From a virus, in the IMG/VR virus record IMGVR_UViG_3300032246_000731, positions 1-52,602 of that record: a DNA stretch of 52,602 nucleotides. The stretch is one strand, 5' to 3'. The notes below the pieces were generated by a model. That model was given only the letters and a program-made list of their open reading frames with translations, had not been told where the DNA came from and ran no database searches. Positions within the stretch are counted from its first letter, which is position 1. Each line of letters begins with the position of its first letter. Position numbers and translations under genes: made by a program. This document shows, in pieces, positions 2,236 through 51,761 of the stretch.

Positions 2236-2473
2236 TTTCTTCCTTTGATTGTTCGTATCGTTTAAACATACGTGTTACATCTTCCATGCGTTCGGCAAAA
2301 ATATCAGCACTGGTCTGAGATACTTTTTTCATATCGTATTCGCTAGGATAATGACGCAAACATGCTCTTGCTTCATCTTTAACAGCTTTGGGAACTCGAG
2401 GAGTAGTTAAGATTCTTAGCAAAAATCTTTGAGTTTGTACTACTGCTCGATATCTTTCATCAGGTAATGTCAT
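2222..2473 (-). CDS. BPSL0761-like small protein
   Basis: This 83-aa protein begins MTLPDERYRAVVQTQRFLLR and continues with an RHYPS segment, a pattern I associate with the BPSL0761 family of small proteins in Burkholderia and other proteobacteria, whose function is not known. It is mostly helical and charged, with no signal or membrane segment. It overlaps the genes on both sides by 14 bases, within the DpdA-like/oxidoreductase operon. The resemblance to a betaproteobacterial family is a weak host clue. The family call is from memory of the motif, not a search. Confidence 0.65.
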   Translation of the reverse strand: MTLPDERYRAVVQTQRFLLRILTTPRVPKAVKDEARACLRHYPSEYDMKKVSQTSADIFAERMEDVTRMFKRYEQSKEENDQT

Positions 2474-4163: not shown

Positions 4164-4332
4164 TTCGACCCCACTTAATTTTTAACCATATTCTTTCCAT
4201 AACATAGTGTACGGCAGTTAAGATAACGTGTATAAGAACAGCATCACTTAGACCGGTCCATATCGCAGTTATTAACAATGCTACTATTCTATAGCTTAAT
4301 GCTCTTACTACTGTTCTTTTTTTAGTTTCCAT
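4156..4332 (-). CDS. DUF2061-like small membrane protein
   Basis: This 58-aa protein begins METKKRTVVRALSYRIVALL and ends in a basic VHYVMERIWLKIKWG stretch. That pattern fits DUF2061, small inner-membrane proteins of unknown role found in bacteria and phages. Two short hydrophobic segments can be seen, around residues 15-26 and 31-45. The ATG at 4332 overlaps the TAA of the upstream coiled-coil gene (TAATG) and has AGGAGA just upstream. Its 3' end overlaps the TTG start of the DpdA-like gene by 8 bases. Confidence 0.75.
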   Translation of the reverse strand: METKKRTVVRALSYRIVALLITAIWTGLSDAVLIHVILTAVHYVMERIWLKIKWGRIE

Positions 4333-4499
4333 TAACTTCTCCTAGTGCGAACTTCATTTGCCACTTGGCTAATTTCATTCTTACTTCTAATACGTTCGCG
4401 ATCTAGATAAGATAATTGCTGGGTTAGACGTTGCACTTGTTCCTGCAACTGTCTAACTTGTTGTTCTAAAGCAACTATTTTAGGATCTATTTGGTTCAT
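4332..4499 (-). CDS. small coiled-coil protein
   Basis: A 55-aa protein beginning MNQIDPKIVALEQQVRQL. It is almost entirely a heptad-like run rich in Gln, Leu, Glu and Arg, so a short coiled coil is likely. I do not recognise a family. Its ATG at 4499 overlaps the TGA of the sliding-clamp gene (ATGA), and its stop overlaps the DUF2061-like start, so it sits between two solid genes in one transcript. That position is the best evidence it is real. Confidence 0.65.
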   Translation of the reverse strand: MNQIDPKIVALEQQVRQLQEQVQRLTQQLSYLDRERIRSKNEISQVANEVRTRRS

Positions 4500-5227
4500 T
4501 TAGCTTGAGCTGGCAAAATATAATTGTATTCAGCAAGACCGCTGTTTACAGTAATTTGTAATGCGCCCGCATCACTAATACGCATAGTAACATCTCCGCT
4601 GAGACCTAAAATACTTTGTATTTGGCTAACTGGCCATGCCCATGACTGCTTTAGTTTACCAGTAATACCGCTGTGGAAAACAAACGAACCTGCGTGTGTG
4701 CTTGCATCACCAAAACTAAACACTAGATTATCATTGTCAGTTTTAACTTGGAAAGTTGTTTCTTCTGTATGTGCGGCCGCTTGATATTTCAAACGTTGTA
4801 TACTTGCCACTGCTGGCTCAAATTCGATATCCCACTTGGCGCCTTTGAACTTAACAGTTTTCATTTGTTCATTAATGATTTCTGCGTTCATAAAACGATA
4901 ATCATTTTTAAAATCTTTGACCGCATTTTCAAAATGCAAACCTGTTGGAATATCTTCGCCATTACGTTGTTGTGTAACAACATCGATACTTGCGCCTTCT
5001 TTATATTCCGGGCACTTTAAATGTAAATCTAATTTGTTTAGATTAGGCATACCAAACACACCTTCAAATTCTGAAATCGGCGCATTTGTTTTGGCTTGCA
5101 AAATAACGCTACGATCTTCAGCCATGGCTTCGATTGTAGTTTCGTTATTTGCGCTACTAATTTTTAATAGCGGTAAAAATCCCAGACTGTGTGTATGTGC
5201 TACTAAGTCTTGTAAAATATCTTTCAT
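4496..5227 (-). CDS. 45: sliding clamp (T4 gp45-like DNA polymerase processivity factor)
   Basis: The 243-aa product is close in length to T4 gp45 (228 aa), the trimeric ring that tethers the polymerase and also serves as the mobile activator of late transcription. I recognise it by the segment ISEFEGVFGMPNLNKL, which matches the gp45 region centred on IYDLNGFLG, by the two-domain beta-rich layout, and by the neighbouring gp43. Sequence identity to T4 is low, so the call leans on length and context. It is the first gene after a strong sigma70 promoter (5246-5274) with a ribosome site AAGGAG. The ATGA overlap at its end couples it to the small coiled-coil gene. The clamp loader gp44 is far away at 28-29 kb. 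Confidence 0.75.
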   Translation of the reverse strand: MKDILQDLVAHTHSLGFLPLLKISSANNETTIEAMAEDRSVILQAKTNAPISEFEGVFGMPNLNKLDLHLKCPEYKEGASIDVVTQQRNGEDIPTGLHFENAVKDFKNDYRFMNAEIINEQMKTVKFKGAKWDIEFEPAVASIQRLKYQAAAHTEETTFQVKTDNDNLVFSFGDASTHAGSFVFHSGITGKLKQSWAWPVSQIQSILGLSGDVTMRISDAGALQITVNSGLAEYNYILPAQAK

Positions 5228-5245
5228 ATGAATCTCCTTATGTGT

Positions 5246-5274
5246 ATTATATTTAGATTTTTGGTTAAAGTCAA
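5246..5274 (-). promoter_or_regulatory. sigma70-type early promoter for the clamp operon
   Basis: On the minus strand TTGACT (5274-5269) is followed after exactly 17 bases by a perfect TATAAT (5251-5246). The clamp ATG is at 5227, giving a leader of roughly 12-15 bases. The -35 box overlaps the last codons of the UGDH-like gene, so clamp transcription restarts even though the upstream gene reads into it. This points to host RNA polymerase and early expression. Confidence 0.8.
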
Positions 5275-6041
5275 GAGTTTTTTCTTACTTTATTATTATA
5301 ATTGATAGCGGATTCTACCAATGTAACTGGGGTATTAATGGTATTGGCCCATTGTACAAACGCCTGTGTATCTTTGGGGAAACAATGTCCTCCAAAACCA
5401 CGCTCACCATCGGGCCCGGGTACTAGTGTATGTCCTGCGCCAATGCGTGTATCTTGTGATACTATATGTCGAACAGTATCGAAGTCGACACCTGTCTTTT
5501 CACATATATCAAATATTTGATTAAAGAAACTAGTTTTTAATGCAAGGAACGAGTTAGTAGTATATTTGACTATACAAGTTTCTTTTTCACTGCATCTAAA
5601 AATTATTTTACAATTAGGTAATGATGTTTGAAATAGTTCTTGCCAGAACCCTTCGGGATCATCACCGCCGATTACCATATATCTTTGATTTAAAAAGTCA
5701 CTGTCGGCAGTGGCCGCACGTAGAAACTCCGGGCTGTAACAAATACTATGATCCGTATATATTTCTTTAAACGCTTCTACTACTGCTGGAGTAACTGTGC
5801 TTTTAACTAGTACTGGCATAAAAATCGGAACTTGATCCAATACGTTTGCTATATTCTCAGCGATAATACCATTTTCTCCAGTAGGCGTGTTTACACAAAT
5901 AATTAAACCATCTGCATCATGATGATATTGTATTTCATTAGTTGTATATTGTGGATCGATAATGACAACTTCGTGAGATGTTTTTAACGCATTATGTATG
6001 GCCTTACCGACGAATCCGTATCCTGCAATTATAATTTTCAT
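5271..6041 (-). CDS. shortened UDP-glucose/GDP-mannose dehydrogenase-like protein
   Basis: This 256-aa protein matches the NAD-binding and central domains of UDP-glucose 6-dehydrogenases, which oxidise nucleotide sugars to uronic acids for polysaccharides. The N-terminal Rossmann loop is IIAGYGFVG; then come VNTPTG, the STVTP segment, Lys169 in LALKTSFFN, and the catalytic Cys220 in GFGGHCFPKD. Full enzymes are about 390-440 aa; here the C-terminal nucleotide-sugar-binding domain is absent, as the frame stops 36 residues after the active-site cysteine. It may be a compact enzyme or may have a changed substrate. It lies one base after gp43 in the same leftward transcript. A role in modifying host surface sugars is inferred from the family. 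Confidence 0.85.
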   Translation of the reverse strand: MKIIIAGYGFVGKAIHNALKTSHEVVIIDPQYTTNEIQYHHDADGLIICVNTPTGENGIIAENIANVLDQVPIFMPVLVKSTVTPAVVEAFKEIYTDHSICYSPEFLRAATADSDFLNQRYMVIGGDDPEGFWQELFQTSLPNCKIIFRCSEKETCIVKYTTNSFLALKTSFFNQIFDICEKTGVDFDTVRHIVSQDTRIGAGHTLVPGPDGERGFGGHCFPKDTQAFVQWANTINTPVTLVESAINYNNKVRKNS

Positions 6042-31130: not shown

Positions 31131-32480
31131 TTAGTTGTATTCGCCAATGTAACGCATATAAACGTTTGAACCGCCATCGCGAGTCCATGCTTCGATTACT
31201 TTTGGATTATCACCAGTCAATGCTGTAATTGTAGTAGCTACTGTAAATGTTCCGCTACCACCACCGCCCGAAAATCCAACTGTTGGATTGCTAGTGTATC
31301 CATCACCATAGCTGGTAATGTTAATGCCACCGATTGTAAATTGCATTACAACACGAGCGCCGGTTCCTTGTGTAGTACCTGTTCCGCTGAGTGAGCTAGT
31401 AGAGTATGAACCGTTGCCTAATGGAAGTGGTAAAGTTCCACCGCTTACAACTTGTAAATTGCCGATTGGCCCAGTACTGTCCGCAGTTACATAAGTTATA
31501 GTTACACCGGTAGCGCCAGCTTGAGCGGATTGACTCATTTTAATAGAATTAGCTGGCATCGAAGCTGTACCAGCGACACCGGTAGCTGTTACCCCAGTTG
31601 GGTTATAATCGCTAACCGTAGTACCAACTTGCAGACCTGCACCGCTGATAGCGACTCCTACAGCAATATTTCTAAAATCACTAACAGCAGTTATGTTTAC
31701 TTGGCTATTTGTTGTTGTAGCAGTAAATGTTTGATTCAACGAAGTAACTTGTAAAATAATACCAGGGAAGGCATTAACAACCATCTGATCGTTTAATTTA
31801 TATCCGTTACCTGAATAGCCTCCAGAAACAGTAGCCGATAAACAAGAATACGTAGCAGTGCCAGTAGCGTGTGTACCACCTGATTGTAATCCGCCACCAC
31901 TGAATTGAATAGTAGTTGCACCAGTAAATCCTGATCCACCTTGACTAACAGTTACAGTAGCTAAACTTTCTCCACCTACTGTAATACCTTTATTGATTGT
32001 ACCTGGCAATGTTGGAAAAGCAGTATCGTAACGTAAAACACCTGCGTTCTCTGTTGAAAAACTTGGAATCTGCACAGCAGTTTGATTACTATAAATCATT
32101 AAACGTACAGCCGCATATTTGCCACTAGTTGGCCAATTCTTAAATGTTAGAGTAGCATTAGTAGTAAGTGTTACACTTTGTAATGGCCCATCTGTAACAC
32201 TAATATCTGTGTTAGTTGAAATAGTTCCTTTATCTAGTGCAACACCGTAAAATGTTTTAACTACAGCATTTGACAGCACGTTTTGTCCAAAGTCATTTGC
32301 GGAATTTTTAAATGCCGAATTGTTTTGAAGGGCTGTAATTTCAGTACTAGCTTGTCCTAGTCCTGTTTTAATTACACCAAAGTTATCTCTAAAACCTTGG
32401 CTATTATTATCTTGCCCAGCAACTGGGTATGTGGCATCTACTGAGCCAAAGTTGATTAAACTTGCGGTTGGGTTTGGCAT
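31131..32480 (-). CDS. tail-fibre-type structural protein
   Basis: The 449-aa product is rich in Gly, Thr, Ser and Val with beta repeats, typical of tail fibres. The N-terminus has NNSQGFRDNFGVIKTGL, a divergent form of the anchor domain shared by the three fibre genes farther upstream. Repeats of GSGF(T/Y)xxxTxxFSGGG (for example SQGGSGFTGATTIQFSGGG and YTSNPTVGFSGGGGSG) appear twice, and an AVGVAISGAGLQVGTTVSDY unit matches a repeat type of the giant protein. Ribosome site AGGATG; CTAAATA box upstream. It is probably part of the tail adhesion apparatus; the receptor is unknown. Confidence 0.8.
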   Translation of the reverse strand: MPNPTASLINFGSVDATYPVAGQDNNSQGFRDNFGVIKTGLGQASTEITALQNNSAFKNSANDFGQNVLSNAVVKTFYGVALDKGTISTNTDISVTDGPLQSVTLTTNATLTFKNWPTSGKYAAVRLMIYSNQTAVQIPSFSTENAGVLRYDTAFPTLPGTINKGITVGGESLATVTVSQGGSGFTGATTIQFSGGGLQSGGTHATGTATYSCLSATVSGGYSGNGYKLNDQMVVNAFPGIILQVTSLNQTFTATTTNSQVNITAVSDFRNIAVGVAISGAGLQVGTTVSDYNPTGVTATGVAGTASMPANSIKMSQSAQAGATGVTITYVTADSTGPIGNLQVVSGGTLPLPLGNGSYSTSSLSGTGTTQGTGARVVMQFTIGGINITSYGDGYTSNPTVGFSGGGGSGTFTVATTITALTGDNPKVIEAWTRDGGSNVYMRYIGEYN

Positions 32481-32520: not shown

Positions 32521-35500
32521 TCATACCGTTGTAGCATGATTATTAAATACTAGGTATTTATCGCTAGATTGACCTGTTACAGAATCTATTATATAACGAT
32601 CTGCGGTATAATCTAGGGTTTTAAAGTCAAAACCACTATACTTAATATTTAAAATGATATCATCCGCAGTTCCGGGCAAACAATAACAAAGTGGAACTGC
32701 TAGTTTGTATCCTAACTCCAATTTCTGTCCTGGTTGTATACTGCGCATCCAAAGCGGCAGATAATTGCGTTCAGATTCGCCAACAGTAGCAATACTCTTT
32801 CTCCAGTTAGAAACACTGCTAATGTAATGTTTGTTAGGTGAATTGTCAGATATATTGTATGCTGTGCTATCAATTGTAACATTTGATATCGGGCGATCTA
32901 GCCAACTTTCTGCTAAATTTAAACTAGCAGTATCGGTTGGATTTGCCCATATTGCGTTGCTGATATCACTGGTTAATTTTAACTGATCGCGAACATTATT
33001 AACAACGAATTCGCTAGGTGCTTGTGCGTTAGGTTCAAGCGGATCGATTATTTGCAAATAAACCACTTCGTAAATGATATTTTTATTTTTAATTGCGGCC
33101 GCTTTAGTAATGCCGCCTACATGGAATCTCTTTCGCTTATGGTTTAAACCCATAGCACCTAAATACTTGGCCGCGTTTGAAGTTTCAATGCCTGCATAAA
33201 TTAACATGGCTAAATCTTTTCTAACTCCAAAGTTTGGATCGCCCGGACGGAAAACGCTTGAAGTTGTAAAAATATCTGTATCTGAAATAAATTTTCTAAA
33301 GTTTGTTCGCTGAGCTACATTTAGCAATGGTTGAACTTTGAGATTGCTGTATAATTTTTGGTTAGGTGTGCTGACAGTTAATACAAAATCTTTAACGCTG
33401 TCAGATAATCCGTACTGATCTTTAACATATACTGTAAATTTATAAATTCTGTCAAATGTAGTTACACCACCGTCGATACTAAAACTAGGATTAGCAGAAT
33501 CAAATAAAATTAAACCTCGTGTGCCAAGTATATCATATTGATGATTGGCATCGATTGTGGTAAATTTTGCATCTAATTTAAGAGCACTATCGTCGATGGT
33601 AGTAAATCTTGCAACATTCGGAGTACCATATTGATTTACTTTGCCAACTAGTTCTCCATAAGTTGTTAATTCTATACCGGGAGGTAATGTACCAGACGTG
33701 ATTGTATAAATTAAATTACTATTAAGCACTGTTGATGCTGATATTTGTAAATCAGATACAAAGTTTGCAGGGATAGTTCCAAGATTAGAATCAGTAATCC
33801 ATTTTATAGTATTATCAATGTCGCCGATTATTCTTAAATTAAATGTTCGTCGGGCAAGTATAGGCTGAGTATCGCCGCCTGATCTTGTAGCTATAACTGA
33901 AAAAGAATAATTTTTAGCAACGGCAGGTTGGAACGGAATTCTTCCAGCAATAAAAACTTTATTATCGACAGGATTAAATGTGAGCCCTGGAGGCAATTCT
34001 GCTAGCCTCCAGTATAAAGTAGCACCGTTATTGGCAATAAATGTAATACCTGATTTATGTGCAGTTGTACAAATATATGTTCGAGTATTATAAGTAACTG
34101 CATCGTCAACTCTGTATAGGGCGTTGGTTTTCCAAGCATCGGTCGCACCCAGCGTAAAAATAACAGGATATGAATCTACTATTTCTAAAACTTCTAACTG
34201 GTATGTAACATAATTGTCGGCTCTAGCAACCCCTAAATTTCCACCAGTGAGCCATATAGGTTCTTGTAAGAATGTAATATCCGCAGTAAACAGATCGCTG
34301 TCGTTCGTTAATTGAGTGTAGTCTGCATAGAAACTGTCGTCCCCAATTACAAAAATTGAAAACTTTCTTTTTACAACAACATCGCCTGTTGATACACTGA
34401 TTAAAAATTCGTAAGTCTGATTGAGTGCTCTTGGAGCCTTTGTGGGTGTACTGTAGTCAAAATCTACAGTATCAAAGATATAACTATCGTAACCGTTAGA
34501 ACTTCTAATACCAAAGTCAAAGTACGTTGTATCATAAAATACATCATCATACGTGCCATTACCGCTGGTCTGTAGTGCAATCGCTTGAACTGGTTCGACG
34601 ATACCTGATAAGATGCCGCCAGAAGATAAAGTTAACCCGGGAGGCAAACTGCCATCGCCGGCCGCTATGAAATATGTTAACGCCTCACCGTCTGGATCAA
34701 ATGCTTCTAGTTTATAATTAATTACTGATTTACCTAATGCAAATTTTTGTCCATGTCGGCCAACTGCTAACAATCCAGGCGGAGTAACTATAACTGGCAA
34801 TTGTCCGCCGTTAACAACTATGTTAAACGTTCTATCAGAAATTTCAGTACCTAATTGAGCACGTATGCAGAATGTAAAAGTTGTAGATCTCACAACACCA
34901 TACGGAACACCAACAATATAATGTCCTTCTATTCGCAATCCTGGAGGCAAACTTCCTGATATTACTTTAAATGTAGGAAGTGTTGGATTTGTTATAGTAG
35001 TTGGAAATGATCTTGCAGTAGCTAAATCAAATGTTGGATTAAATAAATCCGCACGTTCTACTGCTACAAACGCATCTTTTTGTAGTTTAATAGTATCGGT
35101 ATTACGTAGAATTATATCAGATAAAGATGTGCCAGCAACCCAGTTATATTCCTCAGTAGGCCATTTTTGATTTTCCCAATACAAATTATCACCGTCTCTT
35201 ATTTTAACAAACTGATCGGATATAATTTTATGGAATGTTTGACCTACCATTGCACCGGGATAACGATTTTCTGCTAGTCCGCCTACCCACAGTTCGACTT
35301 TATCAATGTCAATATATGTATTTTTTAATGCTGTTGCTACCGTAACATCACCGGTAATGTCTGAAAAATTCTTATATGCAGGTAAACCTAACAAGGTACG
35401 CATCTGATTTAATAATGGTAATCCTAAATCTCGGCCACGTTGAATATTTGTTGCGGCTAAATCTAGTGCGGCAGGAGGAGCGTCTAACAAATTACGCAAA

Positions 35501-36750
35501 TCTTCAATAATATGTACGTCTAATTTATTTGTAATGTCCGCGGCCAGTTTACGCAAGAATCCGTCTGCACCGCCATTACGTTCGTAGTTAGGCCCTTGAA
35601 TGCCAAACGCTTCAGCTAATGACAGCGCCTCTGTAATATTACCTTGTTCGTCTATTCTATCTTGCGCACCTGACACAATGCTATGCCCAAACCGCATAGC
35701 GGCCGCTGAAAATTCTATAGGTATACTAGCATCAATACTTTGTTTAAATCCTGTGTATGCAGGTACAGTGCCTATAACTTTTGGCAACCATTCGTTGTAT
35801 GTTATCTTCTGAAATTCAGCAATAACAATAGCACGGGCACGTTGGTATAATCTTTCTCCGTCCCATGTAGGATGTAACGCTTTTAGATAATCTACGATCT
35901 TATTATGTTCTCTCAGCCATAGAGTTTGCATACTTAATAAATCTGGATTTTCATTGCCTCGAGGATCGCCTAGTATATAATTTCCATTTCCGTCAACTGG
36001 AGGGTACATACCATTTTGAGAAGTTCGCAATTTACCAGTTGTTGCTACACTTCCGCCTTCGCGTAAAATAACAGGATTGTTAAATGGTGTTGGTCCCTGA
36101 GCTACACCTGGAGGGTATGCTACACCGTAAACGACACTAAGATCAATCCAGCCTGTAACATCATTTATTGTACGTCCTACAACTTTATTAATGCCGGTCC
36201 CTGGTGCTAGTTGATTACGTGTAACAGGAATAAAACTTCCCGGTGTTAATTTAGTATCGCCAGCAGGAATAATTACAGGTATGAATGTATGACCTTCACG
36301 TGCAAATTCTAAATCGTGTGTTAAGAATTGACCAAACGCATACATGAATCCGCTGTATCTAGTTGGGTCAAATTCTTCGCCTTCGTTTACACGGTCCCAT
36401 ACTACATTATTACTAATAGTTCTAGGGTTAGGCAAATCGGTACGCATAGCATATATGCCGTCTGCATAACTGTTTATTTCAGCACGGGCAAATATTGAAC
36501 CTGCTGAATTACGTAATGGTGCTGTTGGATGATGTCCAGTTCCATCATAAGGTGGAGGTGTTGGAGTACCAAATTGCGGAAGTATTGGTAATGGAATATT
36601 TACAATTACACGCTCTTGAAAAGTTCCCTTATCGAAACTTGTTGTTCTAGAATCGAATGTAGTTCTTGCCTTATCTAGTGTAAGGTCCCCTGTTATTCCT
36701 GAAATACCAGGCAACGTGTATCCGGAAGGTTGTGTCCAAATATTAAGCAT
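32521..36750 (-). CDS. animal-type haem peroxidase with putative Ig-like repeats (virion-associated)
   Basis: Residues about 70-560 of this 1409-aa protein form an animal-haem-peroxidase domain (peroxidase-cyclooxygenase superfamily, as in myeloperoxidase). Distal His145 and calcium ligand Asp146 lie in GQFLTHDLEF; TGWIDLSVVYG is the calcium loop. Arg264 and Glu267 are in LGDPRGNENPD, the proximal His356 in MRFGHSIV, and Asn435 in NIQRGRD. The Asp that forms one haem ester bond in MPO is Thr144 here. The C-terminal 800 residues have at least four LPPG(L/I) motifs (for example LPPGLTLSSGGILSGI), typical of He_PIG Ig-like domains, plus other beta regions. The gene lies inside the fibre cluster, so the product is probably on the virion. 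No signal peptide. The enzyme may modify surface polymers or produce oxidants, or only bind. Confidence 0.93.
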   Translation of the reverse strand: MLNIWTQPSGYTLPGISGITGDLTLDKARTTFDSRTTSFDKGTFQERVIVNIPLPILPQFGTPTPPPYDGTGHHPTAPLRNSAGSIFARAEINSYADGIYAMRTDLPNPRTISNNVVWDRVNEGEEFDPTRYSGFMYAFGQFLTHDLEFAREGHTFIPVIIPAGDTKLTPGSFIPVTRNQLAPGTGINKVVGRTINDVTGWIDLSVVYGVAYPPGVAQGPTPFNNPVILREGGSVATTGKLRTSQNGMYPPVDGNGNYILGDPRGNENPDLLSMQTLWLREHNKIVDYLKALHPTWDGERLYQRARAIVIAEFQKITYNEWLPKVIGTVPAYTGFKQSIDASIPIEFSAAAMRFGHSIVSGAQDRIDEQGNITEALSLAEAFGIQGPNYERNGGADGFLRKLAADITNKLDVHIIEDLRNLLDAPPAALDLAATNIQRGRDLGLPLLNQMRTLLGLPAYKNFSDITGDVTVATALKNTYIDIDKVELWVGGLAENRYPGAMVGQTFHKIISDQFVKIRDGDNLYWENQKWPTEEYNWVAGTSLSDIILRNTDTIKLQKDAFVAVERADLFNPTFDLATARSFPTTITNPTLPTFKVISGSLPPGLRIEGHYIVGVPYGVVRSTTFTFCIRAQLGTEISDRTFNIVVNGGQLPVIVTPPGLLAVGRHGQKFALGKSVINYKLEAFDPDGEALTYFIAAGDGSLPPGLTLSSGGILSGIVEPVQAIALQTSGNGTYDDVFYDTTYFDFGIRSSNGYDSYIFDTVDFDYSTPTKAPRALNQTYEFLISVSTGDVVVKRKFSIFVIGDDSFYADYTQLTNDSDLFTADITFLQEPIWLTGGNLGVARADNYVTYQLEVLEIVDSYPVIFTLGATDAWKTNALYRVDDAVTYNTRTYICTTAHKSGITFIANNGATLYWRLAELPPGLTFNPVDNKVFIAGRIPFQPAVAKNYSFSVIATRSGGDTQPILARRTFNLRIIGDIDNTIKWITDSNLGTIPANFVSDLQISASTVLNSNLIYTITSGTLPPGIELTTYGELVGKVNQYGTPNVARFTTIDDSALKLDAKFTTIDANHQYDILGTRGLILFDSANPSFSIDGGVTTFDRIYKFTVYVKDQYGLSDSVKDFVLTVSTPNQKLYSNLKVQPLLNVAQRTNFRKFISDTDIFTTSSVFRPGDPNFGVRKDLAMLIYAGIETSNAAKYLGAMGLNHKRKRFHVGGITKAAAIKNKNIIYEVVYLQIIDPLEPNAQAPSEFVVNNVRDQLKLTSDISNAIWANPTDTASLNLAESWLDRPISNVTIDSTAYNISDNSPNKHYISSVSNWRKSIATVGESERNYLPLWMRSIQPGQKLELGYKLAVPLCYCLPGTADDIILNIKYSGFDFKTLDYTADRYIIDSVTGQSSDKYLVFNNHATTV

Positions 36751-36775: not shown

Positions 36776-37567
36776 TTAAGCGATTCGGCCAAAGTCTAAA
36801 TCATTGTTTATTAACGGTCCCATACCAGCTGATATAAATCCCATGTCTATATCAATAGTATTGTAGTTTGCAATAAAAATACCCATGTCCATATTAAATG
36901 CTTGTGTCTGTAACATCATGCCAAACATGGCATTTAGAACACCTACATTAATGCCATATACGTTTGTTTCGATATTTCCAGTACCTACTGTATCGATAAC
37001 TCTACGTCCGTTGATGTTAAGGTTTCCGCCCAATACTGGAGCAGTGTCATTTTGTACACCTGCACCACTACGCAAGTCAATGATGTTTGCGCCGGCAACA
37101 ATGTTAATGCTGTTATCACTGCTGGTTAAACTTTTAAATTCAGCAGTAGTGTCATTTTTATCTTTAAAAATTCCAATGGTAGAACTAATGGTTGTACCGT
37201 CAGCAGTTCCATAAACGCCGGGATCGGTTGGATAGCTTAGTGTTATACTAGTAAGTGTACTATCAGTACATAACCAATGACCGTTATACAGAGGATTTGT
37301 ATTGCCGTTCAAATAATAATATTGGCTAGTAGCAGGAATAACACTTTGCTGACTAATGACTAGTGTTACTGAAAATGGGCCAGTGCCTGCTTTGTTAAGG
37401 AACCTACTAACTACAATGGAATTTACACCCAGATTTGTACCTTCGGCAATCGGAACGTCAGTTCCTAATAAACTAAAGTTTTCGTTTACTTTTCTAAATG
37501 CTGTACGCAAGTCGTCGCCTGACCCGTCGTTTGCATAGCTTCCTAAATTAATTGTTTGAATTGCCAT
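36776..37567 (-). CDS. fibre-type protein with shared anchor domain
   Basis: The 263-aa protein opens with INLGSYANDGSGDDLRTAF and KVNENF, the anchor domain shared with two other genes here. Residues about 50-130 are one copy of the beta module also repeated in the giant protein (KAGTGPFSVTLVISQQSV, then YPTDPGVYG). The C-terminus is odd: Met- and Asp-rich repeats NMDMGIF, IDIDMGF, SAGMGP. It may be a small fibre or adaptor on the same tail site as the giant fibre. It is preceded by GGTAAATA. Confidence 0.75.
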   Translation of the reverse strand: MAIQTINLGSYANDGSGDDLRTAFRKVNENFSLLGTDVPIAEGTNLGVNSIVVSRFLNKAGTGPFSVTLVISQQSVIPATSQYYYLNGNTNPLYNGHWLCTDSTLTSITLSYPTDPGVYGTADGTTISSTIGIFKDKNDTTAEFKSLTSSDNSINIVAGANIIDLRSGAGVQNDTAPVLGGNLNINGRRVIDTVGTGNIETNVYGINVGVLNAMFGMMLQTQAFNMDMGIFIANYNTIDIDMGFISAGMGPLINNDLDFGRIA

Positions 37568-37598: not shown

Positions 37599-38132
37599 TT
37601 AATAAGTGCCGCCCAAGGCCACACGACGCCATGTGTTTGTCGATATACAAATATACATATAGGTAGAATCGTAGCTGATTTGCCCAACTGTACCGGTAGC
37701 ATTTGATGCTTTGGTACCAGTTGGAATAACGAGCCCGTTTGGTACAGTAACAACACCAGCGCCATTTATAGTCAAACTGCCAGCATATCCGGGCACGTTG
37801 AAACTCATAGTGCTGGCTGTTGCGTTGTAAGGAACATAGCCACTTGTATTGTAATTTAATGAATCATTAGCAATACCAAATGCTTCATTACCTGTACCTA
37901 TACCAAATACAGCACCAGTAGTACCATTTGCAATCTTTAGTGTATAATTTGCTCCACCGGTAGTATCTGTAATGGTTTGACCTGTTGTAGACAGTGCGAC
38001 ATAATTATCTACATCGAATCCCGTAGAATATAACTCAGTAAAGTTGGCATTAATTTTGTTAAATGCCGTGCGCAACGGATCACCGTTTTTACTGTTGGCC
38101 GCTGTGCCTATGTTGATAGTTTGTTTAGCCAT
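37599..38132 (-). CDS. fibre-type protein with shared anchor domain
   Basis: A 177-aa protein starting with INIGTAANSKNGDPLRTAF and KINANFTELY, the anchor domain of the other fibre genes, followed by a Gly/Thr/Asn-rich beta region. The C-terminus (GTVGQISYDSTYMYICISTN) is a short beta knob that resembles ends of small phage fibres. The ATG shares one base with the stop of the giant protein gene (TAATG). It is likely a short tail-fibre component. Confidence 0.75.
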   Translation of the reverse strand: MAKQTINIGTAANSKNGDPLRTAFNKINANFTELYSTGFDVDNYVALSTTGQTITDTTGGANYTLKIANGTTGAVFGIGTGNEAFGIANDSLNYNTSGYVPYNATASTMSFNVPGYAGSLTINGAGVVTVPNGLVIPTGTKASNATGTVGQISYDSTYMYICISTNTWRRVALGGTY

Positions 38133-41100
38133 TACATTCTCCCTACAGCAACTTGGATGACTCCAGCTTCGCCGTTGTCTTTATTTTCTAATGCCTTACC
38201 AATAATGCTACCTAGTTTTGGATCAGTAGCTTTAACAGCATAACCAGGAGTACTACTTGTTGTTAGCAAATCACCTTTACGTACACGACCCACTACCTTG
38301 ACTGGCACACGACCTTGTAGAGCAATCAAGTTCTTAAGTCCCGGACATGCCGCATACATTGAGTACGCCGCATTGTCTGAAACAACACCTGCTACTCTTG
38401 TATCGTTCATTTCGCCGGTAACTGTTACTTCTTTTTCACCGCCAAACACTAGAACAGTACCAACTTCATACTCTTCGTCGCCTTCATAATATTCTGCCAA
38501 GTCACCTGCATAGGTAGCTTGTAGTTTACTTGCACCGACTAGTGTATACACACCAGTCATTGGACAGTCTAAATCTTCGCGGCCTGTTGTAATACTGCGT
38601 GTAGTAAATGTACCAACACTGCAATTTAATGAACTACCGCTTGCTAACGACCATCTACCAGTTAACGTACCGTCTGTAGTGTTGCCACCGCTAGTCAACG
38701 ATGTTACAGTAATACTAGCACCTGTTTGACTAAAATCATGCGAGCCATAGTGTGTAGTAGTCGCTGTTGAACTACCGAGACTCTGCATAAACTTAACGTT
38801 ACCAGGTGTGTAAAATTCTAAAGTTGTGCTGTTTATTTGTAAAATGTTTCCACTTGACGGCAAGCCAGCAATCTTAATACCTTTAACATCAATCAATCCA
38901 GCACCGGTTGTTTTAACTATACTATCGTTACCACCGCTAGTGCTAATTGGTATACAATCGTATGCTTTAACTCCAGTTCTTATTACAGCACCTGTTGAAC
39001 TAGTTGATGTTGGTATATCTCCATTACGGATACCGTCACCGTTATTAACCATTGCTGTTGTTGTAGTCACGCTTACTGCCGCATTGCTTCCACTAATGTT
39101 AGCTAACACACTATTTGGTGCTATCCAAGACATCTTAGCAACTGCGATACCGTCACTTGTCGATGTAGCAGTTTTCAATGATACCCAACCGTCAGTAACA
39201 GTAAGTATATTATTGTCAAAACTTGCAAGGCCACTGGCCGCTTGTTTTTGTTTTGCTGTACCTGTTGGAGCTGACGCACGGGAAGTAGCTATAGTCAACA
39301 GTAATTTGCTTTGTTGTATATCAGCAGTTGAACTTACTTTGCCATCATTGATTGAACCATCTCTAGTAAATGTCATTGTGCCGCTTGGTGATGTACCAAC
39401 AGCACTGATATTAACAATAACAGTATTGACAATTCCAGTGACAACTTGGCCACTACTGAATCCAGTACCGCTAAGTACCATACCTCTAACAATACCAGTT
39501 GTGCTGGCTAATGTTAATGGAATAGTTGAACCGCCGGTAACTGTAGTTCCGCTTGCTTGGAAATTATTAATAACATACGTTCCTGCTACACCAATACCTG
39601 TCTTGTAATCAACAATAACTGTATTTGCCGCAACAGTTCCGCCTGTTAATATCATACCTGGAACAATAGTAATTGTCGGAGCACCTGTAACAGTTAATAC
39701 ATTACCATCAATAGTTCCAGTCAACGAACCAGCAATAACACTTGTACCGCCCGATGTATATGCGGTAGTAACTACAGCACCTTGTATAGTACTGAGCAAG
39801 GTGGAACCGTCCCAACTAATGTTTACGTCACTAGTTGTATCAAATGAAGCATTGGTCCATGCACCAGTTCCAAGTGCATTATTTGTATTTGATGTACCGT
39901 AAACTAATATTTGTCCGTTAATAACACTTGAACCCATGCGTTTAGCAGAGTCTTTAACTTTATAGATACTATCAGTATCATTAACAGTTGTGTCAACATA
40001 AAACTTGTTAGTTGCATCATTTTGTAATAGCGGTGTACCTAAACTACCGATATTAAATCCGCCCATTGACATGTTGCCCTTCATTGGCAACTGTCCACTT
40101 AAAGCCATAAATCCCGGGCCAATCAATGCTGTAGCAGGGGTACTTGCTCCAGAATGTTGTAGTCCTAGACGATTATCAATATAACCACGTGTGGCACTTT
40201 GTGTTGGTACTGTATCAGACGCATCGTTGGTCATTGAACTATCAGTTGAGAATTCACTAACTGTAACACCGCGCTTAAATCCTAAACCGTCCAAGTTACT
40301 CAACGCAATTGATGCTGAGAATGTAACAGTACCAGTACCTTGGTCAACTGTGAAGAAGCGACCCACACGGAAGATACCGTTTTGGTCAGTGGTCACATAG
40401 AACACACGACCCACTGTTTCTTCCAATACTTCTTTTGTCTGGTCTGCTTTTTGGTATGGATTACCGTAAATCTGATATGGATAGTTAGTAGTGTTGTAAC
40501 CGCCTGTACCGATATCCAACAAGTCATGAGCTGAACAACGACAAGTGCTGATGCGTGTAGTAATCTGCGCGGCCGCACCTGCTTGATAACCTGCACGTAA
40601 TGGTGTAGTAACTGTACTACTCATTGGACGACTGATACCAGTAGTTGATGGTGTAATGGTAGTTGCACCAGTTCCATATTGAGTGAAGAATGTTATGTTA
40701 CCAGTAGGAGTACTGCTTGGAGCACTACTTAATGTTAGTGTCACTCCATCAATGTCAACCGCAGTAACTTTTTGATCTGCAATAAATCCAGGACCGCGTA
40801 CTAACATGCCTACACTAATGCCAGTAGTACCGCTTACTTTTAATGTAACGCCAGTTGATCCGCTTGGATTATAAGTCGCAACTATTGCACTTTCTGGATC
40901 TATGGTATAGGCAAGAGTTATACTTGTAGTAGAACTAGCAACCACTTGTACATATTTGTTGTAGAGAGTAGTTGAGTTGCCAGCCATTAGATAATAAGTA
41001 TCAACTACAGGCGCAGTTGATTGTGTTGGTATTTCAAATGTTGTATACCAAGGGCCACTAACGCTACTGTATGTCCAAAAACCTAAAACTCCAAATGGTG

Positions 41101-44100
41101 TACTACTCGGAACTGCACTCAATACAACAGTTGTGTATGGCTCGCCTGTAGCACTTGGAGTAGCACTGATAACATATTGTCCATTAGAAAAACCGTTACC
41201 AACCACAGTTGCGCCAGCTGTAATATATTGTGTTCTATCGCTAGTGTAAACTTTAATGCTGGTAGATAAGTTGTTATAAGATAAACTCTGTGTAGTAGCA
41301 CTACCTGTAGCGGCCGCGCCTAGCACAATAGTGTTGCTTGTAATAGTTATAGTAGCACCCGTGTTATTGCCGTTACCGAGCGCTGTTACAGTAATAGTGC
41401 TGGTTGACTGAACACCTGTGTTATTAAAGCTAGTGACTGTAGCACCAGCACCAACACCGCTACCTGACAGTTGTGCTCCAACTACCAGGGTATTAAATGC
41501 TGTTAGTTGTACGTTTGTAATAACGTTACTACCGGTGGTAGTATTACCAGTAAATGTAGCAGTTGAACTAGTACTTTGGATAATGTTATCAGTTCTACCA
41601 GTTATACTACCAGTGCCAGTTGTAATGTTTGCAAGGGCTGAACCACCATATGTTTTACTAATAGTAATTGCATTGGTAGCTTTACTAATAACATAAAAAG
41701 TATTTTGTCCTACTTCCGTGGCAATCGTAAATGTTAAATCATTTACACCGTCTGTACCACCCAAGTTACCACCTGACAATGTAACGGTCTGGCCAACAGT
41801 GTAGTTTTGACCAGGAGTGGTCATAGTAATACTAGTCACACCAGTCCATGTAGTGCCGGAACCTGTTTTAGTAACAGAGAAGATTGCGCCACTGCCACTG
41901 CCATTGCCAATCTTAGCTTTGACACCAGTATAAGTGCTGGCTGATACAGTACTTGTTCCTGTAATACTTGTATATGTTGTACTAGTAGTCAATGCTCCTG
42001 GTTGCGGAATATTACCAAAAGTTGTGCCGCTACTTGTAAATGTAATGGCATTACCAACAGCTACCCCGCTTGCATCAGCTAATGTGATTGTGCTTGGACT
42101 TGTAGTGCTTGTTGCAGTTACAACAATGTTTCCAGGAATATTTGTACCACTAATATTTGTACCAGCAATAATATTAGTCAAACTACTTACACCCAATATA
42201 CTTGTGCTACCACTTGTAATATTACCAGTTATGGTTCCAGTGGGAACAAAAGTGGCCGCTACCTGTCCTCGGCTAGTCCATCGACTAATCGTAATAGGTG
42301 ATGAACTTGTACTTGTGATACTGTATTGGTTAGCGCCTAATGTGATATATGGAACAGTTGCTTTGGTAAATGTCAATGTCCCTGATGGAACACTGCTTGG
42401 CCCAGCGTTTAATACAATAGTATTGCTTACCAGTGCATATATTAAACCAGTAGGAGTTCCTGCGGTACTTGTAATAAATGTCGGGCTTGTTGCAATAGCA
42501 TTGGCATAGCTTGAACAAATTTGGATGCTTGTAACGCTGTTAACTTTACCAACATAGAAATTAACACCAGCAGTCATATTTGATGTGCCCGCCGCGCTGT
42601 ATGTTGTTCCTCCAACAATCAATGATCCAGTGCCGCCAAATGTGCCACTGATATTAATCGCCTGGCCGATCACATAAGTTCCAGATGTAACTGTTATTGT
42701 TCCAACTGTGTCTGCAATTACAAAAGATGCGATTGAACTAGGAGTGATACTGCTGATAGTTTGAGCACTGGCAAATCCAACGCCCTTAATGGTCATGCCA
42801 ACTGTTAAACCAGCAGTGCTTCCGTACATAAATGTAACGCCACTGCCTGTGGCTGTTGCGGCTGAACTGATACCTAAAGATGATGCTCCATTATTAGTAC
42901 TGATAACAGTTGTTCCTGCAGGAATTCCCTTGCCGAGAATGATTTCACCAACAACGATTCCAGTAAAACTACTTACGTTGGTAATGGTTGCTGAGCCAGA
43001 TGTAATGGTACCAGTAAAGTTTCCGCCTACTACAACAGTAGTTCCGCTTGATCCAGTTGGATTATAACCTGTAAAAACGGTAGTTGTTACCGGAGGGGTA
43101 TAACTGGCAATTGAATGAACTTTGCCACCAAATGCAAAAGCGTATGTGCCTTTGTTAACTTGGTCGATATTTGCCTGCGGTCCAAACACGTTAACAGCAA
43201 TACGTGTATCCCCAGGTGTTGAACCCATGGTCTTACTGCTATCTATCGGGTCAGTCTTGGTAACGTTTGCAGTATCTGCTTGGAACAAGTAGTACTGGAA
43301 TGATTGGTCTGTGCTCAATACCGCTTGATAGGCAGGTAGTACTTCGTTGGTAGCTTCTGTTAAGTTGTATGTTAAAACACGATAGATACTACCCAAGTTG
43401 TCTGCAAACTGAACCGCAGTACTTGGTCGTGTCGGATTAACGTTGTCAATTTCGTAGAACTTAAAGTTTTGTAATACACGAAGCTGTACTAGCTGACCAT
43501 CATATAACGGAGCGGCCAAGCCAGTACTTGATGTTCCACCAGTTCCGCTGGTACTCAATGTGCATAGTAAAACATTTTGTCCACCAATAGTAGCACTGGT
43601 GTATGCACTGGTCGACTGTATTGAAGTAACAGTGCCCGCAGTTGGAGTTGTACCTCCAATCACTTTGTAAGTGATACTTGTGCCTGAAACAATACTTGTT
43701 ATATAGACTGTAGTTGGTGTGCCACCAAAAAGTGTACCAGTGCCAGCAGTAGCAGATAATGTTGTACCAACTGCCAAACCAGTAGTTGAAGTCATTCCTG
43801 TAATGGTCGCGGTCCATGGGCCACTACCACTAATTGATCCAACAGTTCCACTACCAAATGAAGTAGTGGCAGTTATGTTAAATGTGGCATATACACCTAT
43901 ACCTGAACTTGATGTGGCATAGGTATTAGAGTACACCCCGCTACCACCCGCTGTTGGAACACCTGTATAGGTAAATGTTGATAATCCAGTATTAGTTACA
44001 CCAGTCACATACGCCACTAGGTCGCTACCAGCGTTTGAACTAAATGTCGAACCTGCCGCGGTTGCTGTGGCAGTTGTACTTAGAATAACTGTATTACCAC

Positions 44101-47100
44101 CTGTAGTGGCCAATGCTGTTGTGTTAAACGGAATGTTCGGGCCAGTAATCACTGAACCGTTGAAATTATAAGTTGTTGCACTTCCGCCACTAGCACCAGG
44201 ATCACTAGTATAACGTAGTGTTAAACTGGTCAATGTACTGGCAGTACATACAAATGTTCCATTATAACTTGCAGTAGTATTGCCAGCGATGGTATATAAT
44301 CCACCAACTAACGGTGCAGTGGCGACTGCACTGATAATATAGGTAACATAAATGTTGGGAGCACTGCCAACTTTTGTATCAAATGTCGCGGCAGTAGCTG
44401 ACGGGAACATGATCGTAGTATAGTTTGTACTACTGTAGACACCCGGATCGCTTGGGTAACTAATTGTAATACTTGTATACGTACCCGTAGTAGCACTAAA
44501 TGTACCATTGTAATTACTATTGCTGTTACCAGCAACAACATATCCAGTGGTTGCACTTGGCGCAACTGATTGTGTTGGAATTTGGAAAGTTACTAGATAA
44601 GGACCTGTTCCAGTTTTGCTTATATATCCTTGAACTAATACTGCTGGACTCGTACGAACAGCGACCAATGTACCCGCACTGGCAATAAAGTTTTGACCAG
44701 TTGTTGTATTACCAGTAAACTTACTTGATACACCGCCTAAATTCCCACCGCTAACTGTAACAGTGTCACCGATAGTCAGTGCCTGACCGTTAGTCGGAGT
44801 GCTATCGGGTGCTCCGTTTAAAGTTAATGTGATACCGTCTAGGCTTACCGCGGTAACTTGCTGTCCTCGAGTAAATCCTACCCCAGTAACAGTCATTCCA
44901 ATTACTACTCCAGCGGTGCTGGCAACAACTAGTGTTGTACCAGATGATCCGGCCGCGGTATATGTTGTGCTGACATATTTGTAATTTGTTCCCACACTTC
45001 CTGTCGGAACATACACAGTTGTATGACTAATACTGTTAATTTGATAACGCACAAGTCCTTTACCGGCCAACGTGTGATCAATTTCCAATTCACTAATTTG
45101 TGTTGGGAAATAATCATAGCCGTAGATATAAACACTAATAGCACCAGTGTTCATGTTACCATAGAATTGGTTGTTAGTTGAACTTTGTGGTAAACTTGTT
45201 GGATTAAAGATACGTGCTACTTGCGCCAGGTTTTGTGCAAGTGAAACACTATCTGGTTTCTCAGTTACATCATAGCCGCTGGCACGCAAAGCGTAGGTAC
45301 CGTGTGCTGATGATGAACCAATAGAACGAATCTGACCACCATTTAACGCCCAGAAGCTAGTCCAGCAATAGTAGGTAAATGTTGAAACTTGTTCTGTGAG
45401 TCCGCCGTTGGCCGCCAGGATAGCATAACCTAAGTCGTTAATCATTGCAAAGTCGTTGGCCAACATACTCTTATTACCAGCCATTTCAATATTGATAGCT
45501 TGGCCAGTTCCTTGTAACCACGGAGTTTGTGCTCCGAGATTTAATTGAACACTACCACCAATGACATTGCCGTTAACATCGAATGTCTGTGTGTAGTTGC
45601 TGACAGTATTAATTTGATAACGACCGCCTTTAACAAAGAAAGCAGTTGGTGTTTGTGGAGCACGAACATCAAGCCCGCTGTTGACGCCACCGGTCACAAT
45701 TAGTGTAAAACCATCTGCACTTGCGTATGTAATTGTTCCAAGTAAACGTCCTGTGAATCCGTCAACAAACTGACCGCCAGCAAACACCTGTTTATTTTGG
45801 CTACGGCTAAAACTTGTAGCAACTTGTCCGTATGGTGATTTAGATTTAATTTGTCCTTCTGGATCGAGTACCATGGCAAATCCACCATGCCCTTCCATAG
45901 TTAAATTGTTAACGCGAACTGCATTACCGCATAAAAACAAGTCAATGTCTCGGTTGTTTAATGGTGTACTATTAATATCTAATGGGTCAGTCAAATAATG
46001 ACGTCCATAATTGCTTGTTGTGTATAGATGCCAAGTTGTCGGTGCTAGTACACCAAATTGAATCGCTGATACACTAGCAGTAGCACCGCTTGTGCTACCT
46101 GTAATAGCACCGCTTAATGTGCTCATTACACCTGATGTAACTTTATAAGTTATGCTATTTGAACTTACAGACAATATTTGTCCAGTAGCCGACGAAGTGG
46201 TACCAGTTTGTGTAACTGTTTCACCAACTTGGAAAGTATATCCATTGGTATAGTTGATTGTCATTGTACCAGTTTGGCTAAATGGGTACATGACTGTACA
46301 ATTCATAAAGTTACCAGAAACACTGTCAACAACTGCTAGTCCTGGTTTACCGTTTGAATCTAACACATCTGATTGGAAAACATATCCTAACCACTGTACA
46401 CTGGCCTGCATATTGCTACTTAAAGTAATAATAATTTTGCCAATAGTTCCGCTGATTGTAGCACTGACTAATGGGCCAATCGTGGTGATTGAATTAGTGT
46501 TGAATGTACCAGGATCACTTAGGTAACGCAATGTAATTGAACTCGATGTACTGGTGGTACATGCAAATGTTCCGTTATATGATAAGTTAGTATTACCTGC
46601 AATGGTATATGTTAGTGTCGTACTAGGCACGTATGTTTGGGTAGGAATATTGAACAACACATCATATGTTGTTCCACTTACTAATGTCTTACTAACAAAG
46701 CTAGTAATATTTGTAGTAGGAACATAATCGGCGGTGGCGTCAATCGGTCCAATTTGCATACCATCGATTACTGAGTCGCGATAGAAAAATAATTTTCTCC
46801 ATGGACTTTGACTGATACGATCCAATGGTCGTATAATTGTTCGACGGAATTCGTCACCTTTGATTGAAACGTTGCTGGTCATTCGAATTGGATAATCTTC
46901 GTAGTACACTCCTGCTTCAACAAAAATAACAATTTGTAATGCGCCAACACTTTCAGCAAATTCTAATTCTTCATTCGCTACAAAGAAACCAGGTTGCAAT
47001 AGCTGACATGTAATTGTATCAGCATTACTGCTAACACCGGGACTGTAACTTAAAATATTAGCAGTGGCATTTGACCCAACACCACGTAAAATTTTGCCTG

Positions 47101-50100
47101 GTAAAATGTTGTAGTCGCCTGGAGGACATTGATCAACATAACCGTTGCCGCCGTTACTAAATGTAACAGTATAGATACCAGAACCGAAAGATGGTGTCGG
47201 TGCTACACCAATACCATTTTGTACAATGTTTAACATTACTGCATAATTGCTAGTAAATGTGGTGATAGCAGTTAGAATAAATGTTAATGTACCACTTGGG
47301 GTTCCGGCCGGAGCTGAACTTATTGTAATTGTTGTTCCGTCAACGGCAGTAACAGTTCTTCCGCCTAAGAATCCAGCACCGGTTAATGTCATTCCTGGTA
47401 ATATTGTACCAGATATTCCGCTGACAACTATCTGAGTACCTGTTCCGCTTGAGTATGTTGCTGTGGCACTATACCCGCTGTTAGCATTTTTAGTCCCGTC
47501 GATAGTTTGACTTACCAACGTCTGATATCTCGAAGCACTTGTTTGATTTAAAACTTGTAGTCCAAGTGTTCGTGCATATTGAATGCCGTCAACAGTTTCG
47601 GTATTTTGTGTGCCAATAGCGATTGATTTAGCTGACGAATTTTTATAATAGCTCTTACCAGCATTGATACTTTGATATGTTCCGCCAGTCAACAAGTCAA
47701 TGCTCATAGCATCGACAATATAGCCAATATCTCTACGGCAAGTAGCTTCGTTATAGTTAAATCCACCTTTATATTTTATATTCAAATACGCTGTAGTTGC
47801 TTGAGCAACAGCATACGAGTTAACAACCATAGTTGTTCGAACGCCTACAAAACCTGAAAGAGCGTAAGGACTGATAGATAAATCGGGTTTAGTGACTACT
47901 AAACTAGGAGGATTTAGATCGATGACATTAATGATTCTATCCCATTTGTCATTTACTGTAGTCGATGCACTACTACCACCAGGATAGTTAGTATCGATAG
48001 TTTGCACAACGGTATATGTAGTAGCGGTTGTAATACTCCATGTTCCTGGATTGCTTGGGTAAGATACAACCATAGTAGTATCTGTACAAGAAACAACACT
48101 AACAGTAGTATTAAATCCCACAGTTGTATTGCCAGAAATTGCAACACTAGTTCCAGGATCCATTGGAATAATTGTTTTAGGAATATTTAAAGTTACCAAG
48201 TATGGGCCAGTGCCAGACTTACTAACATACGTTACTGTTTTTGGTAGATATTGTTGATATAAAGATGCTGGAGTATTATTTCCTGCAACTGCGGCCGATA
48301 ATTGTTGTGCATATCCTAGCGCGGCTATTTTTGTAGATTTTTCACTAGCATCAATGGTACTTGTATAAGTGGTCACACCATTTACGACTGCACTTGTCCA
48401 GAATAAATTAGCGGCGGTTGTTGATCCGCTAGTACTTCCGTAAGTTACATCATATGCAACAGCTTCGACTAATGAGCGTATATCTCTGATCCATTGATCT
48501 TTCCCATCACTATCAACGTATGCGAAAGAAGGATAGTTTTGTTTCAACCAACCCGCTACTTCTTGACTAATAAATGCAGTATTTTTAACCAACATGATTG
48601 CGGCATTTTTAGGACTTGCCGCCAACGTTGATGGTGCGTTAAGTGATAACAAAGATCGGTATGTCAGACTCTTTGTTAGTGTATCAATAATCACTTGGAA
48701 TAAGCTAGTAATTCCTGTAATTGCACTTGAATTATTAATATACGGATAACTGTTGTTAACGAACAATACTATTGAGTTAATAGTTGTTGATTTGTTTGTA
48801 TTAATATTTCCATAGATTGTTACAAGTGTTGCGGCACCTAATGCATAATTTGGGTAAGTAATGGCCGGCGCAATATTGGCTGATAATAATCCGGCATAAG
48901 TTGCGCTAACATTCATAGTAGCTGATGTTAACGAAACCGACACACCGTTTAATTGAGTGCTTATTTTAAAATGTGTAGTGTCGGTGATTTCAATTATGTA
49001 ATAAGTATTTCCAGCAGTAATGCCACCTAAGTAAGGAGTTAAAATTGTAGTTCCAGTACCATATATTCCAGGATCAGATGGATAACTTAATACAATAGAA
49101 GTTGCTGTTCTTGAACTAACTGTGAACGTACCGTTGTATGATGTATTACTATTTCCGCTAACTGTAAAGCTAGAGCCAACTACCGGCAATACTGTTTGAG
49201 TTGGCACTACTACTGAAACCAAATATGGACCTGTTCCAGTTTTGCTTTGAAAACCTGTCACTGTAATAGTCGATGTTAAATCAAATGTGATAGGCATACC
49301 AACAGTCATGTTAACCGTTGATGTAGTTGTTAACGCACTACCAGTAGCATTAGTAGCTAACACGCTAAATGAAGTGCCTGATATTAGCGATATAAGATTT
49401 GAAACTCTGGAACTTTGAGCAGAGCCGCCGCTATAGGTTTGATTCTGATATTGACTAACACTATTTTGATAAACTTGCGCAGGGCTGGTATTAGAAATAA
49501 TTGCTTGTGCTAGCGTGTTTATATAAGCAATGGCACCCTTGGTCGCATTAAGTTCGCTCGATGCTATTTGCCTAGCATAGTTAGCCCAGTATCGTTGTCC
49601 TGCATAAATTGTTTTGCTGTTGCCGCCATACTGTTGATCATAGGCGATAGCTTCTACGATATACTTTACATCTCGTTTACAAGTTGATTGACTGTAGGCA
49701 AGTTTAGGATAGTTAGCACCTAACCATGCAACAATTTCTGCTTGTATAAATGATATGTTGCTTATCAATAATGTTCTTGCCGATACTTGACTTGTTGTTG
49801 TAGAAACTAACGGAGTCATTGATAATGCAGGCTCAATTCCTCCTTGAATTACAACTATCATAGTACTAATGTTATTTGTAAATGAATTTACTGCCGCATC
49901 TACTGGATTACCTAGCAGTGATGAACCGTTAATCAATGCGATTTGTAATTGCTGTAATGCTCCAATAATTTCAGTAACTGACAATCCAGTATTAGCATAT
50001 GAGAAATATCGAGCCATCAATATACTTTGATAGTTAGAATTAAACACCATATCGATATTAAGTGCATCGATTACTAGATTCAAATAAGTGTTAAGTGCTG

Positions 50101-51437: not shown

Positions 51438-51761
51438 TTAAACTCCGAAGCTAGAACCGCAACCGCACGTTGTTTGTGCGTTAGGGTTTTTAATTGTAAA
51501 AGAACTGCCCATTAGCTCTTCTTTATAGTCTATTTCTGCACCTGTTAGATATTGCATACTCATTGCATCTACAAGTACTTTAAATTCATCTAGAGGAATT
51601 TCAAAATCGTCCTCGTTTGCTACTTCATCGAACGTAAATCCATAGCTAAATCCGCTACAGCCACCGCCTTGTACAAATGTACGTAATGATAAATTTGGGT
51701 TACCTTCTTCGTAAAGAAGATCTTTGATTTTTGTTTTTGCTGATGCAGAGATTGTGATCAC
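51438..51761 (-). CDS. A-type iron-sulfur carrier (IscA/ErpA family)
   Basis: A 107-aa protein with the A-type carrier pattern, which delivers Fe-S clusters to target proteins. The three cluster-binding cysteines are Cys35 in [10 protein letters not shown] and Cys99 and Cys101 in TTCGCGSSF, at the positions of E. coli Isc[18 protein letters not shown] is also typical. The start is GTG at 51761 with GAGGG upstream and a GATAAATA late promoter. It lies four bases before the giant fibre gene, an odd place. Phage A-type carriers are known in some marine phages; here late expression suggests a use in virion-related or late host metabolism. Confidence 0.95.

Follow-up and report, generated by a model that had tools for sequence, protein, structure and literature searches.

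The DNA considered here is a 52,602-base virus contig from IMG/VR (IMGVR_UViG_3300032246_000731; hereafter, the window), and its 1409-amino-acid (aa) open reading frame (ORF) at positions 32521-36750 of the minus strand, open from ATG to stop, encodes an animal-type haem peroxidase within a protein of a phage tail cluster. By comparison with related contigs, the peroxidase is an in-frame cassette in a widespread phage scaffold with immunoglobulin (Ig)-like repeats, where it occupies two different insertion points, and the scaffold protein carrying it most probably forms part of the virion. We put at roughly 55% the probability that the element is a tail-tethered, active peroxidase which would work at the host surface and is carried as an optional, exchanged cassette.

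The peroxidase domain and its active site

The Pfam profile PF03098 matched aa 68-561 of the ORF over profile positions 4-530 of 530 (E = 1.6e-114; E = 1.6e-117 in another search), spanning the entire catalytic domain of the peroxidase-cyclooxygenase superfamily, and 27 viral contigs besides the window carry the domain; a chance match is therefore excluded. The intact animal-type haem peroxidase that an earlier note on this DNA had recognised in the ORF is thus confirmed. Among solved structures, the top match was 8s6c_A (E = 9e-75, ~510 residues), followed by peroxinectin A (6erc) and then myeloperoxidase. The 8s6c structure is that of CyanoPOX from Cyanobacterium sp. TDX16 (PMC11776367), which belongs by sequence to the same fold family and shares all but one of the haem and calcium residues, but is a stand-alone, cellular bacterial lactoperoxidase outside any virion, with Asp80 where the phage copies have Thr.

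The residues of the haem and calcium sites, as listed for 8s6c in the CyanoPOX paper (PMC11776367), map one to one onto the window protein. His145, Arg264, Glu267, His356 and Asn435 correspond to 8s6c residues 81, 199, 202, 294 and 376; the calcium ligands Asp146, Thr199, Trp201, Asp203 and Ser205 align with residues 82, 140, 142, 144 and 146; and Gln141, Arg353 and Arg438 correspond to residues 77, 291 and 379, with residue 77 given as Asn in the text of PMC11776367 and as Gln in the PDB sequence. The domain accordingly has the distal His145 and Arg264 and the proximal His356 with Asn435 that define the superfamily, as well as a complete calcium site, in which Asp146 is replaced by Glu in 7 and Ser205 by Thr in 4 of the 19 phage copies.

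The sole difference among the named haem and calcium residues lies at the position of CyanoPOX Asp80, the ester-forming Asp, which is Thr144 in the window. Thr is found there in 19/19 phage copies and Asp in 67/67 bacterial relatives, and the change serves as a diagnostic mark of the phage clade. The earlier reading of these letters, namely, that the catalytic residues and the calcium loop are kept and the ester-forming Asp is lost, holds at each position. With Glu267 present and the Asp changed to Thr in every phage copy, the two-ester arrangement of myeloperoxidase and lactoperoxidase is absent, and because Glu267 is kept, no more than one of the two esters that link haem in the mammalian enzymes could form. 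Across the 19 phage sequences, 11 of the 12 pocket positions tested are invariant, compared with 207 of 509 positions overall (P = 3e-4), and every copy of the peroxidase domain contains either no cysteine or one. Iodide is the best substrate of CyanoPOX, the tested enzyme with a matching pocket (PMC11776367).

Presence, absence, exchange and origin of the cassette

A 9.2-kb contig (L020), 81-92% identical to the window at the DNA level, encodes the scaffold without the peroxidase. Its counterpart of aa 1-65 (88% identity) is joined directly to that of aa 592-1409 (93%), with 24 nucleotides in place of ~1.6 kb in the window, and the blastn break points fall at 2638/2663 of L020 and at 16019/17625 of the reverse-complemented window. 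Other pairs of empty and filled scaffolds are L097/L009 (98% nucleotide identity over 9.8 kb downstream), L040/L002, L064/L012 and L068/L008. Whereas these carry the insertion point of the window (site 1), L199 (same contig as L120), L242 and L248, in a second scaffold branch, have the peroxidase in a linker before the C-terminal domain (site 2), again with empty partners of filled scaffolds (L200/L199 and L239/L242; L201 is another near-identical empty partner). An assembly chimaera was ruled out by the 27 further contigs, the in-frame domain wherever the gene is complete, the two insertion points and the identical scaffold-peroxidase genes recovered from different metagenomes (L003/L004, L005/L019).

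The scaffold family matched 282 viral contigs in one alignment and at least 551 in another, the overlap between the two sets not having been computed. Among distinct scaffold rows, 59 lack and 19 carry the peroxidase in the first set, and 77 of 80 lack it in the second. On the scaffold tree, which is a quick tree and on which change counts do not split gain from loss, the presence of the peroxidase changes at least 12 times (12-13). No other large enzyme insert was seen in the scaffolds of both kept sets, judging from ORF length and a reading of the N-terminal sequences. Small modules (of the GTTDFRKIGAPYNTVGTIF type or CBM_5_12-like) are inserted near the same N-terminal scaffold region in L066, L070, L087 and L092.

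Synonymous divergence (dS) of the peroxidase and of the scaffold differs sharply within pairs. For the window and L002, the peroxidase has a dS of 0.106 and the remaining scaffold one of 2.03, and nucleotide identity falls from ~0.98 to 0.72 at the cassette edge. The corresponding values are 0.127 versus saturation for L005-L006 and 0.18 versus 2.5 for L009-L010, and the relation is reversed in L007-L008 (0.87 in the peroxidase, 0.12 in the scaffold). Thus, the cassette recombines independently of the scaffold. Inside the cassette, the ratio of nonsynonymous to synonymous divergence (dN/dS) is 0.06-0.16, which indicates purifying selection and, therefore, a cassette that is kept functional.

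In phylogenetic analysis, the phage peroxidases form one clade (support 100/100), within which two site-2 copies make up a separate branch (100/100) and the site-1 copies are monophyletic with moderate support (86/57). The nearest bacterial sequences, many of them from lake genomes, belong to Mycobacteriaceae, Synechococcus/Cyanobium and Alphaproteobacteria. These peroxidases of aquatic bacteria are the closest relatives by sequence (at most 49% identity) and have the identical catalytic set, but are cellular, retain the Asp and in some cases carry RTX repeats. The phylogeny that the earlier note had proposed as a way to the bacterial donor did not lead to one: no recent donor, that is, none above 49% identity, was visible in a genome scan confined to sequences that match two peptide patterns; a nearer donor may therefore exist. 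Its remark that bacterial members occur as secreted or adhesin enzymes fits the homologues as regards secretion, since they look secreted; 2 of the 4 bacterial proteins scanned weakly matched the RTX calcium-repeat model, and RTX repeats are typical of type I secretion. The bacterial relatives are probably the bacterial peroxicins of PMC4420034. At the bacterial loci L128-L145, peroxidases of freshwater Mycobacteriaceae, picocyanobacteria and Alphaproteobacteria are intermixed on the tree, which suggests transfer between phyla or mis-binned genomes.

The scaffold protein, its neighbours and the phages

The features of the ORF and of the adjoining genes are as follows:

32521..36750, minus strand: scaffold protein with peroxidase cassette, 1409 aa, in the tail cluster (open ORF, PF03098, He_PIG, orthologous scaffold family)
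36583..36750, minus strand: N-terminal scaffold flank, aa 1-56, retained in empty alleles (L020 88% identical over aa 1-65)
34978..36582, minus strand: peroxidase cassette, aa 57-591 (blastn break points against L020; sharp identity steps at the edges)
35068..36549, minus strand: PF03098 animal haem peroxidase domain, aa 68-561 (Pfam and structure matches)
36313..36333, minus strand: distal haem motif GQFLTHD with Gln141, Thr144 (Asp in bacteria), His145 and the calcium ligand Asp146
36136..36156, minus strand: calcium loop TGWIDLS with Thr199, Trp201, Asp203 and Ser205
35950..35961, minus strand: catalytic Arg264 and Glu267, invariant among phage copies
35683..35685, minus strand: His356, proximal haem ligand (CyanoPOX His294), invariant
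35446..35448, minus strand: Asn435, partner of the proximal His (CyanoPOX Asn376), invariant in phages
34591..34722, minus strand: He_PIG Ig-like domain, aa 677-720 (E = 9e-12)
34051..34137, minus strand: weak CBM_5_12-like module, aa 872-900 (E = 2e-5)
32524..33303, minus strand: conserved C-terminal scaffold domain, ~aa 1150-1409, common to the Phosso and Atu_ph07 subtilase proteins
31131..32480, minus strand: fibre-like gene with YPVAGQDNNSQGFRDNF connector, downstream of the scaffold (motif also after most site-1 scaffolds, with or without peroxidase)
36776..37567, minus strand: upstream tail-fibre connector protein (phrog_677, baseplate wedge tail fiber connector, E = 2.6e-7)
37599..38132, minus strand: second upstream connector/fibre protein (phrog_677, E = 4e-9; phrog_6942, tail fiber; weak PF07880)

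The Pfam match to He_PIG downstream of the peroxidase accords with the Ig-like repeats described in the earlier note, and the CBM_5_12-like match scored slightly under the gathering threshold. Foldseek matches of the scaffold model to cadherins were given no weight (template modelling score ~0.1; mean predicted local distance difference test, pLDDT, 40). T4 gp9/gp10-type connector or fibre-connector motifs occur in the neighbours on either side of the window ORF, in agreement with its earlier assignment to a tail-fibre cluster. The gp9/gp10-type connector motif is present in the upstream genes of 13 of the 14 peroxidase loci and the fibre-like motif in the downstream gene of site-1 peroxidase loci, and most empty scaffolds have the same connector and fibre neighbours as the peroxidase-bearing ones. 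The peroxidase is, as expected of a virion enzyme, encoded among tail and fibre genes within a structural-type protein. Directly upstream of the connector genes lies a 4433-aa ORF (38132-51433, minus strand) without a Pfam match, of which only the C-terminus matches phrog_22593.

Two jumbo phages, Sinorhizobium phage Phosso and Agrobacterium phage Atu_ph07, encode subtilase proteins in which the C-terminal domain of the scaffold recurs at 22-25% identity. These proteins resemble the peroxidase scaffold in this domain, in their He_PIG repeats, in having the enzyme in the N-terminal part and in the adjoining fibre genes, and the Phosso gene following the subtilase scaffold begins like the downstream fibre-like gene of the window. 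They differ in carrying a protease rather than a peroxidase and may differ in insertion point. The subtilase is a second enzyme cargo that this kind of tail scaffold bears in the two rhizobial jumbo phages (Atu_ph07 AUZ95088, L196:7106-10861; Phosso XYS97278, L021:7355-11218). Counting from the anchors gp288, gp292, gp293 and gp327, the Atu_ph07 subtilase gene is gp329, the last member of coding sequences 284-329, a cluster rich in virion proteins detected by electrospray ionization tandem mass spectrometry (PMC6102473). The proposal in the earlier note that the peroxidase is fixed to the virion is strongly favoured by the tail and fibre context as far as location goes. Beyond the note, the peroxidase proves to be a mobile, optional part of a common phage scaffold and not a constant feature.

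The window encodes a T4-type DNA polymerase and clamp loader, a ClpA/B-type ATPase and PhoH, along with genes which, judged by eye, resemble DnaJ and GroES, and a 223-kb peroxidase-bearing contig encodes the gp23 capsid protein. This core-gene content identifies the window as part of the genome of a T4-superfamily phage; the peroxidase is carried by certain large, T4-like viruses that infect aquatic bacteria. The order polymerase, Clp, DnaJ, PhoH, clamp loader, fibres, scaffold is common to the window and Atu_ph07. The contractile tail sheath model PF04984 had no match in six partial records, although divergent sheaths may escape it, and PF16075 had none in the large contigs. Fe/Mn superoxide dismutase was found in 6 of 10 peroxidase-bearing and 7 of 14 peroxidase-free records (13 of 24 partial records overall, including L283-L288) and, showing no association, was rejected as a partner gene of the peroxidase. 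Elsewhere in the window are a 567-aa protein (2460-4163, minus strand) with the LGDSGGFQIGKG motif and without a Pfam or PHROG match, reminiscent of tRNA-guanine transglycosylase-like (DpdA) enzymes; an oxidoreductase-like gene group (479-6041, minus strand; ADH_N, GFO_IDH_MocA, UDP-glucose dehydrogenase); and an IscA-like iron-sulphur assembly protein (51438-51761, minus strand; PF01521, E = 3e-19).

Proposed role and alternatives

We propose that a lactoperoxidase-like bacterial haem peroxidase was captured by T4-superfamily phages, apparently once, and, as the contig comparisons show, now passes among them as a cassette that is optional and in frame, at linkers of the Ig-repeat scaffold. 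The enzyme would be loaded with haem in the host cytoplasm, assembled into the tail and released at lysis, so that no secretion signal would be needed, and the phage exterior would then carry a haem- and calcium-loaded, catalytically competent peroxidase. At adsorption, it might draw on hydrogen peroxide that comes from the host or from the water, oxidising small substrates, for instance iodide or phenolics, or surface polymers close to the cell. Oxidation of host surface polymers and generation of hypohalous acids were the activities suggested in the earlier note. The peroxidase may help on some hosts and be dispensable on others, which would account for the rapid gain, loss and exchange of the cassette; this pattern is that of a host-interaction trait. 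Tentatively, the tail-displayed enzyme might serve as a host-range or biofilm-penetration cassette that makes oxidants at the host surface during adsorption.

The same conserved active site would also suit a virion-borne peroxidase that removes hydrogen peroxide, shielding the particle or the newly infected cell instead of acting against the host's surface. The superoxide dismutase genes of 6/10 peroxidase-bearing records point to phages that handle reactive oxygen, but such genes are as common without the peroxidase (7/14). Animal-type peroxidases are, moreover, poor catalases and require a reductant, and the tail location and patchy exchange resemble a host-specific trait; we regard peroxide removal as unlikely. 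It is quite unlikely that the domain acts as an adhesive or cross-linking device like peroxinectins, anchoring the particle to a matrix by coupling it oxidatively or by binding proteins. Peroxinectin A ranks second among the solved relatives, and the protein also contains Ig-like repeats and weak carbohydrate-binding modules, but the closest relatives by sequence are lactoperoxidase-type bacterial enzymes.

A Trojan horse has been proposed for iron in phage tail fibres (PMC11705849), and by analogy the bound haem, whose site is conserved, could be bait recognised by haem or iron uptake receptors of the host, with catalysis incidental. However, the haem is buried in the peroxidase fold, and the invariant distal residues Gln141, His145 and Arg264 would be unnecessary for haem display alone, which disfavours mere display and makes this reading improbable. 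Least probable is a protein kept out of mature virions that would target competitors or debris within the lysate: at nearly every locus, the scaffold gene sits between genes for tail connectors and for fibres, and the related Atu_ph07 protein ends a virion cluster defined by mass spectrometry.

Several points weigh against a tail-tethered, active peroxidase working at the host surface. The Asp to Thr change takes away one haem ester bond, with perhaps lower oxidising power; CyanoPOX has unlinked haem b in crystals and is active (PMC11776367), so that ester loss alone is no argument against activity. Shallow alignments left the AlphaFold models poor, with mean pLDDT of 33 for the peroxidase and 40 for the scaffold. 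Both virion content and activity of the peroxidase-bearing phages are predicted here from genes, and the support from Atu_ph07 gp329 comes from its position at the end of the cluster. The peroxidase is not essential, since most scaffold copies are without the domain; none of 50,697 phage genome records contained it at E <= 0.01; no dedicated source of peroxide emerged; and superoxide dismutase is equally common in its absence.

A search of the open-licence literature found nothing relevant on phage haem peroxidases. The enzyme superfamily and virion enzymes as such are known, and what appears to be undescribed in that literature is a haem redox enzyme that forms an exchangeable module in the scaffold of a phage tail region. 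Tailspike depolymerases and tail lysins likewise place an enzyme on a tail-region protein and vary by domain exchange, but they hydrolyse or lyse polymers, whereas the phage peroxidase would be a haem redox enzyme; to our knowledge, the virion enzymes known so far cut polymers. One tail-scaffold family shows variation of whole enzymes, peroxidase and subtilase, and phages that are almost the same but for the cassette constitute a natural experiment. If the peroxidase indeed works from the tail, a haem enzyme would add redox chemistry to the adsorption toolkit of phages, and the haem content of the particle and the ambient peroxide would become relevant to infection.

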